DNA of 64,000 nucleotides from the NCBI RefSeq assembly GCF_025353885.1, contig NZ_JANXNX010000005.1:1-64000 (forward strand), given 5' to 3'. Each line of letters opens with the position of its first letter. The stretch's first letter is position 1. The notes beneath the pieces were generated by a model. It ran no database searches and was not told the origin of the DNA. It saw only the letters and a program-made list of their open reading frames with translations. A program made the translations under genes and the position numbers. This document shows, in pieces, positions 52,939 to 62,865 of this stretch. Source of the stretch: Sphingomonas sp. (lineage in GTDB: Bacteria > Pseudomonadota > Alphaproteobacteria > Sphingomonadales > Sphingomonadaceae).

Positions 52939-53736
52939 TTAGACGGTTGCCGGTGCCTCGGCAGGGGCTGCTTCAATAACGGGAGCGGCTTCCGGCTGGG
53001 CGAGGGCTGGCTCGACCGGAGGCTCTGCCATTGCGCCGAAATCGATACCCTTCTGCTGACCATGGCGGGTCGAGGCAGCGCCGATGGCATCGCAATACAG
53101 ACGGATTGCCCGGCTTGCGTCGTCATTGGCTGGAATCGGGAACGCGATGCCGTCAGGCGAAACATTCGAATCGAGGATCGCGACCACCGGAATACCAAGC
53201 GTGTTGGCTTCCTTGATCGCTAGTTCTTCCTTGTTCGCGTCGATCACGAACATGACATCGGGGATGCCACCCATGTCGCGGATGCCGCCGAGCGACAGCT
53301 CGAACTTGTCACGCTCACGGGTAAGCTGAAGGACTTCCTTCTTGGTAAGCCCCGTCGTGTCGCCCGAAAGCTGCTCCTCAAGAGCCTTAAAGCGCTTGAT
53401 CGAACCCGAAATCGTCTTCCAGTTGGTCAGCATGCCGCCCAGCCAGCGGTGGTTGACGAAATGCTGACCCGAAGCCCGAGCAGCATCAGCGATCGGCTCC
53501 TGAGCCTGGCGCTTCGTGCCGACAAACAGGACCTTGCCGCCGCCTGCAGAAATCTGCGAAACGAAATCCAGAGCACGCGCCATCAAGGGCACGGTTTGCG
53601 AAAGATCCAGAATGTGGACGCCGTTGCGGTCGCCAAAGATGTATGGTTTCATCTTCGGATTCCAGCGGTGCGTCTGGTGTCCAAAGTGTGCGCCCGCATC
53701 TAATAGCTGGTGCATCGTGACGACTGGTGCCGCCAT
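52939..53736 (-). CDS. rpsB: 30S ribosomal protein S2
   Basis: S2, 265 aa: [21 protein letters not shown] and [14 protein letters not shown] signatures. It has a Pro/Ala/Glu-rich C-terminal tail. AGGAG lies 8 bp upstream of the ATG. The leader is strongly structured (53768-53816). Confidence 0.97.
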
Positions 53737-53767: not shown

Positions 53768-53816
53768 GGGAAGCGATGATCCGGGCATCGGCCCGAACAC
53801 CGGTATGGTGCTTCCC
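53768..53816 (-). ncRNA. Putative structured rpsB leader, three-way junction
   Basis: On the minus strand an outer helix GGGAAGC/GCTTCCC encloses two hairpins: CACC/GGTG and CGGGC/GCCCG. The element ends about 31 nt before the rpsB ATG. Ribosomal protein S2 leaders are known autoregulatory sites in other bacteria; homology to any described S2 leader was not tested. Confidence 0.5.
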
Positions 53817-53855
53817 ATGTGGAATGGACGGACCCCGTAGCCCGACATTAACCGG

Positions 53856-53889
53856 TTGACAAGTGATCCGTTCAGAACATAACAAGAAC
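53856..53889 (+). promoter_or_regulatory. SOS promoter with LexA box, driving the small membrane protein
   Basis: TTGACA (53856-53861) and TAACAA (53880-53885) are spaced by 18 bp. An alphaproteobacterial LexA box, GAACATAACAAGAAC (GAAC-N7-GAAC, 53875-53889), overlaps the -10 region. This is a classic repressor arrangement, reading rightward toward the gene at 53943. A third GAAC follows 3 bp later (53893-53896). Confidence 0.7.
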
Positions 53890-53942
53890 ATGGAACGAAA
53901 GAAAAACACTGGTTGTTACGTCCGCACTAAGGAGTTGGTATA

Positions 53943-54161
53943 ATGGTTCTTTTTCTCACCGCCATCACGTCACTGGGGCTCATTTCGCTGGCCATGTTCG
54001 TGATTGCTTCGACGCTTTACGGTTCGGGGACCGCCGTTCTGTCGGCGTTAGCCGCCGAGTCGACGTTTGCGATGGTGCAATCAAAACCGCATGTCCGCAG
54101 GGCAGTTCGGCTTCGCGAATCTATGCGTTTTAAAGAGCAGCCACTGCGCGTTGCCGCCTGA
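53943..54161 (+). CDS. Small single-pass membrane protein, predicted SOS-inducible
   Basis: A 72-aa protein with a strong hydrophobic segment at residues 2-27 (VLFLTAITSLGLISLAMFVIASTLYG) and a basic C-terminal half (PHVRRAVRLRESMRFKEQP). AAGGAG precedes the ATG. It belongs to no family I recognise. The LexA-boxed promoter 54 bp upstream and the small bitopic design recall SOS-induced division inhibitors such as Caulobacter SidA. That role is inference. The gene converges on pssA with 32 bp overlap. Confidence 0.75.
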   Translation: MVLFLTAITSLGLISLAMFVIASTLYGSGTAVLSALAAESTFAMVQSKPHVRRAVRLRESMRFKEQPLRVAA

Positions 54162-54900
54162 TTTTCGCATAGCTCTTCATCCCCATCGGGATGAGTGCGA
54201 GATAGATGATGCAGATCAGTGACAGGGTCGGCCATGGTGCCGACAGCAGCGCACCGAAAAGGATTGCGATGCCGGCCAGCGCTTCGAGCCTGATCCGTCG
54301 ACGCAGCCGCAGCGAGCCCCAACTGAAGGTCGCTACGTTTGAGATCATCAAGAACGCCACGAATGCAAGCCACGGCCCGGCGACATAGGGTTCGCGAAAC
54401 CAATGCGATTCGGTAACCAACCAAAGATACATAGGAAGCAACGCTAACCCGGCCGCCGCCGGTGCGGGTATCCCGGTCAGGAACCCGGCCGATTTATGTG
54501 GTTGGTCGGCACTGTCGATCGCCGCATTAAACCGGGCGAGTCGGAGCGCTGCGCAAACGGTGTAGGCGAGCGCGAATATCCAACCATAGCGTGGCACTGC
54601 ATTCAGCGACCACAGGAACGTCACCAGTGCTGGCGCCACGCCAAACGCGATCACATCGGACAGCGAATCGAGTTCGGCGCCGAAGCGGCTCTCGCCCTTC
54701 AGCAGCCTCGCGATGCGACCATCGAGGCCATCGAGCACACCCGCAATAATGATCGCCGCGAGCGCCCGTTCCCATTCGCCAGCGATCGCGAAACGTACCG
54801 CTGTCAATCCTGAACACAGCGCCAGCGCGGTGACGGCATTCGGGGCCACCGCCCGAAGCGGAATCCCACGTCGCGCTCCGACGGGCAAGGTCGATTTCAT
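54130..54900 (-). CDS. pssA: Phosphatidylserine synthase
   Basis: CDP-alcohol phosphatidyltransferase, 256 aa, several membrane helices. The full motif D60-G-x2-A64-R65-x8-G74-x3-D78-x3-D82 is present. It condenses CDP-DAG with serine. It lies 10 bp after psd on the same strand. Confidence 0.94.
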   Translation of the reverse strand: MKSTLPVGARRGIPLRAVAPNAVTALALCSGLTAVRFAIAGEWERALAAIIIAGVLDGLDGRIARLLKGESRFGAELDSLSDVIAFGVAPALVTFLWSLNAVPRYGWIFALAYTVCAALRLARFNAAIDSADQPHKSAGFLTGIPAPAAAGLALLPMYLWLVTESHWFREPYVAGPWLAFVAFLMISNVATFSWGSLRLRRRIRLEALAGIAILFGALLSAPWPTLSLICIIYLALIPMGMKSYAKIRRQRAVAAL

Positions 54901-61652: not shown

Positions 61653-62753
61653 TCATTCGGCATCGTCGTCCTCGCTGGGGCCAACCATCAGTTCCTCCGC
61701 AACCTTGTCGGTGCGCTGGCGGATGGCCTTTTCGAGGCGGTCGGCGACTTCGGGATTGTCCTTCAGGTAAGTCTTCGAATTCTCGCGACCCTGCCCGATG
61801 CGGATCGAATCATAGCTGAACCAGGAACCCGACTTTTCCACGATTCCGGCTTTCACGCCAAGATCGAGGATTTCGCCGGTCTTTGAAATACCCTCGCCAT
61901 ACATGATGTCGAATTCGACCTGCTTGAACGGTGGCGCAACTTTGTTCTTGACGACTTTCACCCGGGTAGTGTTGCCGACGATATCGTCGCGCTCCTTGAT
62001 CTGGCCGGTGCGGCGGATGTCGAGCCGAACGCTGGCATAGAATTTCAGCGCATTGCCGCCGGTCGTCGTCTCGGGCGAGCCGTACATCACCCCGATCTTC
62101 ATGCGGATCTGATTGATGAAGATGACCGTGCACCGTGAACGGCTGATCGACCCGGTGATTTTGCGCAGCGCCTGGCTCATCAGGCGGGCTTGCAGGCCGA
62201 CATGACTGTCCCCCATCTCACCCTCGATTTCGGCCCGCGGCACAAGTGCGGCGACCGAATCGATTACCAGCACATCGACCGCGTTCGATCGGACTAAAGT
62301 GTCGCAAATCTCAAGCGCCTGTTCGCCGGTGTCCGGCTGCGAAACGATCAGCTCGTCGATATTGACGCCAAGCTTCTTGGCATAGGATGGGTCGAGCGCA
62401 TGTTCGGCGTCGATGAACGCCGCCGTGCCACCAATTTTTTGCGCCTCGGCAATGGCATGGAGGGCGAGGGTGGTCTTGCCCGACGACTCAGGCCCGAAAA
62501 TTTCGATAACCCGGCCGCGTGGCAGTCCACCGATGCCAAGGGCGATGTCGAGTCCGAGCGAACCCGTCGAGACCGCCTCGATCTCCATCTTTTCACGGCT
62601 GCCCAGCTTCATCGCCGAACCCTTGCCGAAAGCGCGGTCGATCTGCGCCAATGCCGCCTCGAGCGCGCGCGCACGGTCGCTTGATTCTGCTTTTTCCGCT
62701 TTGTCTGTCTTGGATGCCATATCGCTGCCGATGACTTTCAACTGAGCTGCCAT
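61653..62753 (-). CDS. recA: Recombinase RecA
   Basis: 366 aa: P-loop GPESSGKT (87-94), the [19 protein letters not shown] loop, and an acidic C-terminus (SEDDDAE). Catalyses strand exchange and stimulates LexA self-cleavage. ATG 62753 has AGGGA 9 bp upstream; a later ATG at 62720 is less supported. A LexA box lies 76 bp upstream. Confidence 0.98.
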
Positions 62754-62828: not shown

Positions 62829-62865
62829 GAACAAGAGTAGAACGAACTTATTTCACTGGTGCCAA
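62829..62865 (-). promoter_or_regulatory. recA SOS promoter with LexA box
   Basis: GAACAAGAGTAGAAC (62829-62843) is a perfect GAAC-N7-GAAC alphaproteobacterial LexA box. On the minus strand TTGGCA (62865-62860) and TTCTAC (62842-62837), spaced 17 bp, give a plausible promoter whose -10 lies in the box. This occupies most of the recA-cckA gap. Confidence 0.8.

Follow-up and report, generated by a model that had tools for sequence, protein, structure and literature searches.

A LexA-boxed gene for a small membrane protein between rpsB and pssA in Sphingomonadaceae, a candidate division inhibitor of the SOS response

The locus described here lies in a window of 64,000 nucleotides, the whole stretch of Sphingomonas sp. 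DNA that was analyzed, in which a short open reading frame diverges from rpsB and converges on pssA. The features referred to below are as follows.

52939..53736, minus strand: rpsB (30S ribosomal protein S2), divergent neighbour of the small gene
53856..53861, plus strand: −35 element TTGACA, 5′ of the box, read in the sequence
53875..53889, plus strand: LexA (SOS) box GAACATAACAAGAAC, read in the sequence and kept in orthologs
53880..53885, plus strand: putative −10 TAACAA within the box, after an 18-nt gap from TTGACA; weak, hexamer uncertain
53929..53934, plus strand: ribosome-binding site AAGGAG, 8 nt 5′ of the ATG
53943..54161, plus strand: gene for a 72-aa small membrane protein (helix at about residues 4-25, basic tail, C-terminus ...LRVAA)
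54130..54900, minus strand: pssA (CDP-diacylglycerol-serine O-phosphatidyltransferase), convergent neighbour of the small gene
54130..54161, no strand: 32 nt shared tail to tail by the small gene and the end of pssA, the site of the pssA codon choice discussed below
62829..62843, minus strand: LexA box GTTCTACTCTTGTTC, of the same type, 5′ of recA (61653..62753)

An earlier note on this DNA had described the box, the TTGACA, the ribosome-binding site, the 72-aa open reading frame and its divergence from rpsB, and all are present at the positions listed above; it had further remarked that recA in the same window carries the same box type, which is borne out by the site at 62829-62843 upstream of that gene. 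Between rpsB and the small gene, the segment CCATGTGGAATGG (window 53815-53827) is identical in five of five same-genus members and may belong to the leader or the promoter of rpsB.

The window contains eight matches to the pattern GAACN7GAAC, where 2.2 are expected; the 2.76-Mb genome contains 100, as compared with 48 matches to the reversed pattern. With a matrix derived from eight clear LexA targets, the small-gene box ranks 16th among the 100 genome matches, beside the recA box. Taken alone, a bare match to GAACN7GAAC is weak evidence and unremarkable for the small gene, and the significance of the box derives from its conservation across genomes rather than from the pattern match. That the motif is the one used by LexA in this organism follows from the identity of its target genes (lexA, recA, uvrA and others). 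In a regulon check covering 20 fetched sites of this genome, the same box type is found just 5′ of lexA (box C100:979-993, LexA domain C100:768-953) and 5′ of uvrA, as well as at or close 5′ of the starts of nrdA (C84:2412-2426), rmuC (C22:6369-6383) and pdeM (C25:40403-40417). Two repair radical-SAM genes, one PA0069-type and one UDG-linked, also have boxes at or close 5′ of their starts (at C22:45008-45022 and C56:8300-8314), and these two genes, together with nrdA, rmuC and pdeM, are predicted to be further LexA targets of the genome.

Orthologs within the genus share 36 to 56% identity and have the box upstream in all four genomes found. A profile search with the small protein through 401 genomes of the order returned matches in 33 genomes; all match loci adjacent to pssA have one to three boxes 5′ of the small ORF, and those non-syntenic matches that were checked have no box. 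Weak matches at L014-L016, L038, L041, L043 and L045 were rejected, as rpsB, pssA and the box are all missing there. As a control for bias, the region 5′ of rpsB was then taken without regard to the small gene or the box. In a first sample, a survey of related genomes, the box is present in 41 of the 43 family genomes in which pssA adjoins rpsB; in the remaining two, the small ORF is intact and the box has one mismatch. The second sample consisted of 68 sphingomonad loci from named genomes picked by RpsB similarity; pssA adjoins in 61 of these loci, with the small ORF in 59/61 and the box in 58/61. A box within 200 nt upstream is found in 55 of the 59 small-ORF loci, against 0.33 expected from shuffles and none in 244 control windows, which excludes a chance origin of the box; the two samples are not wholly independent, with identical sequences in L017/L236, L059/L188 and L107/L242. 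Genera covered include Sphingomonas, Novosphingobium, Sphingobium, Sphingopyxis, Erythrobacter, Porphyrobacter, Tsuneonella, Croceibacterium and Blastomonas, among others. One-mismatch boxes (AAACATAAGTGGAAC; GAACATTATAAGTAC) occur in some syntenic members that have no perfect box (L071, L231 and L116), which suggests drift of a working site.

Several family genomes have no small gene at the locus, and in some of these, weak profile searches found none elsewhere; the gene is thus not strictly required. A relocated copy together with its box is found in one genome (G029, locus L158). In the other families of the order, the stretch read 5′ of rpsB contains neither pssA nor a gene-sense box, and a profile search of 289 genomes of the class yielded no convincing member beyond the family, the matches there lying mostly in long frames or containing stop codons and looking like chance. 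Homologs with the same box upstream, whose absence the earlier note had named as evidence against its reading, were therefore found family-wide. The best explanation of this distribution, as judged from sequence, is that the small gene is a core member of the LexA (SOS) regulon in the family Sphingomonadaceae.

A TTGACA-N18-TAACAA promoter overlapping the box had also been proposed. Both hexamers are present, the −10 lying within the box, but the −10 is poor, and a sigma-70 promoter scan recognized no promoter at this site. Across the family the box consensus is GAACAWAN4GAACAT (47 single-box loci), and in 55 of 65 loci, against 1.5 expected, a box is preceded by TTGAC at no more than 25 nt, in most cases with the end of TTGAC 4 to 7 nt from the box; read in this way, the conserved promoter element is TTGAC just 5′ of the box. 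With this spacing both the spacer and the −10 fall under the box, which is where LexA usually represses by exclusion. In the window's own genus TTGACA lies farther off, 13 to 14 nt from the box, such that the −10 would fall on the first half of the box. Several genera have LexA boxes in tandem, two or three of them, 5′ of the small gene (L017, at 1371 and 1406, and L020, L029, L097, L098, L248 and L249).

The overlap with pssA provides a means of asking whether the small ORF is translated. The overlap is 16 to 113 nt long in most syntenic loci, and the two reading frames are related in the same way in 114 of 121 distinct sequences. The pssA Arg codon opposite the stop and final Ala of the small gene is AGG in 62/63 cases versus 45/1635 (2.8%) elsewhere (p=1e-82), and the next pssA Arg is CGG in 81/90 versus 493/1635 (30%) elsewhere (p=1e-30), p-values that are inflated by kinship of the sequences, with the direction being clear. 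At this second position CGC, the usual Arg codon, is absent, and the pssA Val codon in the same antisense stretch is GTC in 71/72 cases versus 40% elsewhere in pssA. Thus, pssA is kept to poor codons because the TGA and Ala-Ala of the small gene are needed. A conserved PssA C-terminal motif of which Ala-Ala is a mere by-product is rejected as the whole explanation on this codon choice; the same overlap bases are, as read from the codons, under double constraint, with selection on the small gene too. Pairwise dN/dS among close members is 0.12 to 0.6. On these grounds the small ORF is a real, translated protein, and the pssA overlap offers a clean case in which translation of a small gene is detected from the codon choice of its antisense neighbour.

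The protein was said to have a single membrane helix and a basic tail, and this description holds across the family: a hydrophobic 19-mer (mean of at least 1.84) lies near the N-terminus in 65/65 members of the first set, followed by a Lys/Arg-rich tail. Members are 70 to 110 aa long, with a mean net charge of +6.4 and an Arg/Pro-rich tail of ~58 residues. The tails hold 634 Lys/Arg versus 214 Asp/Glu in the 65 members (~10 Lys/Arg per tail), whereas the N-terminal flank has zero Lys/Arg across the whole set. By the positive-inside rule, the positively charged side of a membrane protein is cytoplasmic; a Lys/Arg-free N-terminal flank and a basic tail therefore predict that the tail is in the cytoplasm, and a topology with the N-terminus out is likely. 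Divergence is fast (mean column identity of 25%) and, apart from the C-terminal end, conservation is usually higher in the N-terminal part than in the tail. AlphaFold, run without an alignment, gives a long helix at residues 2-46 and a second at 49-65 (pLDDT 79, pTM 0.40). No divisome-binding motif is recognizable in the protein, and scans of 61 members against Pfam, NCBIfam and PHROGs returned nothing convincing. The earlier view of the protein as undescribed stands, in that it has no Pfam or NCBIfam family and no description was found in the literature searched. That search, which did not cover all journals, found no account of the gene, its distribution, its promoter logic or the pssA overlap, and all four appear to be undescribed.

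The C-terminus ends in Ala-Ala in 57/65 and 51/59 members, versus 1/59 long frames of the window, which, with non-coding frames among them, serve as a rough control. This end resembles that of the genome's own tmRNA (ssrA) tag, ANDNEVLAIAA. In Caulobacter, CtrA is stabilized by changing its terminal alanines (PMC4433202), and turnover of SosA depends on its C-terminus (PMC6851548). Given the likeness to the ssrA tag and the CtrA precedent, a cytoplasmic Ala-Ala end is a plausible ClpXP signal, and by analogy we somewhat favour turnover through it; the Ala-Ala end could also serve something other than proteolysis. The ssrA-like end would make the small protein a simple test case for turnover through such an end.

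These features suggest the following mechanism. LexA would occupy the GAACAWAN4GAACAT-type box across the core promoter, 3′ of the −35, and keep the small gene off, until RecA-triggered cleavage of LexA turns it on; LexA binding at the box and induction are, from the conserved sequence, nearly certain. In Sphingopyxis granuli TFA, RNA-seq (PMC6472365) shows that anoxia raises lexA and recA about 6-fold and imuAB-dnaE2 11-12-fold, and under such control the gene between rpsB and pssA would be expected to follow them. The product would be a single-helix inner-membrane protein with its N-terminus out and its Arg/Pro-rich tail in the cytoplasm, and rapid degradation by ClpXP or a similar protease would probably follow from its ssrA-like Ala-Ala. 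The helix of the product would contact a late divisome membrane protein (FtsW, FtsI or FtsN), so that septum formation is held back, and the block in septation would end once damage is repaired and the small protein degraded.

Division inhibitors are a common component of SOS regulons, and SulA (PF03846) has no match in this genome or in 60 relatives. Small single-helix membrane SOS inhibitors are recurrent, several acting through FtsW (PMC13396833, PMC4211646). Together with the C-terminal turnover of SosA, these considerations argue for a division-inhibitor role; by analogy, we give division inhibition by the small protein an even chance, and regard FtsW, FtsI or FtsN as a possible but rather unlikely target. 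The small protein probably helps sphingomonads to pause division during DNA repair, to judge from the analogous systems. As a whole, the best explanation, held at marginally better than even, is a LexA-repressed, short-lived, tail-inside membrane protein that holds back division. The fuller combination of a family-wide SOS checkpoint, a tail-inside division inhibitor, an ssrA-like degron, a topology reversed relative to YneA and SosA, and a stop and degron embedded in an ancient pssA overlap is one that we put forward tentatively, as somewhat short of an even chance.

Other functions are less probable. The small protein may instead be a TisB/DinQ-like SOS peptide that disturbs the inner membrane, with effects on proton-motive force and ATP and a slowing of metabolism or nucleoid processes, the divisome not being its target; DinQ itself, an SOS-induced peptide with a single helix, depolarizes the membrane (PMC3567139), and the single helix, the mean net charge of +6.4 and the SOS box would all fit. 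We consider this improbable, given that the ~58-residue tail and its selected AA end set the small protein apart from those peptides, that no antisense RNA partner is found among Rfam families (the Rfam matches of the window are two tRNAs), and that the small gene is part of the family's syntenic core, unlike scattered toxin-antitoxin loci. A membrane-anchored DNA-damage regulator or adaptor with a non-division target, acting for example in protease recruitment or in modulation of PssA phospholipid synthesis, carries a similarly low probability: the convergent pssA overlap is conserved, the basic Pro/Arg-rich tail would suit binding of lipid, nucleic acid or protein, and the AA end could engage ClpX, but the gene and box are kept in three loci where pssA was not detected alongside (L067, L096 and L226), which makes a PssA-specific role unlikely.

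Much less probable is that the transcript, not the protein, matters, with SOS-induced convergent transcription lowering pssA expression by way of the tail-to-tail overlap of 16 to 113 nt; the protein is under purifying selection, its stop codon and Ala-Ala are selected at the cost of normal pssA codons, and a few genomes keep the small gene without adjoining pssA. Regulation of rpsB by the box, and so of ribosome production in SOS, with an incidental small ORF, takes account of the box's place in the divergent rpsB intergenic region but is rejected as largely refuted, since box position tracks the small gene and not rpsB: the rpsB-box distance varies from ~130 to 641 (1468 in L239) while the box-to-ATG distance is mostly below ~120 nt, the box has moved with the gene where the latter has moved away from rpsB (325, 641, 414 and 380 in L018, L031, L036 and L059, respectively), and genomes of the order with no small gene at rpsB usually have no box there either.

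Returning to division inhibition as the preferred reading, the literature searched contains no SOS division inhibitor in sphingomonads (Sphingomonas, Novosphingobium, Sphingobium, Sphingopyxis and Erythrobacter). If the small protein is such an inhibitor, a LexA-boxed gene missed by curated families fills this sphingomonad gap, and represents an independent case of small membrane proteins repeatedly evolving to stop division in the SOS response.

Finally, the small protein may be set beside characterized systems. SulA of Escherichia coli, which targets FtsZ, is comparable in that the small protein, too, is a possible SOS division inhibitor with rapid turnover; identity with SulA is rejected, as there is no PF03846 match in the members or in the 61 genomes. 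TisB and DinQ share SOS control and a cationic single-helix membrane build, whereas the small protein has a long tail, is encoded by a vertically inherited core gene, and has no antisense RNA system seen in Rfam. YneA from Bacillus and SosA from Staphylococcus are likewise SOS-regulated single-helix small proteins, but their C-terminal domains are extracellular, with a LysM in YneA (PMC13396833), whereas the tail of the small protein is predicted to be inside; identity with YneA is rejected, since 61 members have no LysM or other Pfam match. DidA from Caulobacter crescentus is damage-induced, 71 aa long and has one predicted transmembrane helix (PMC4211646), but is SOS-independent (DriD), whereas the small gene has a conserved LexA box. 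In regulation and general build the small protein resembles SidA, also from C. crescentus, which is likewise a small alphaproteobacterial inner-membrane protein under LexA control but has 29 aa (PMC4211646) as against 70 to 110 aa. Homology to SidA would be hard to demonstrate because the proteins are so short, and SidA has been shown to act on FtsW, whereas for the small protein a divisome target is proposed. By analogy, the "sphingomonad equivalent" of SidA suggested in the earlier note is the most likely function of the gene.
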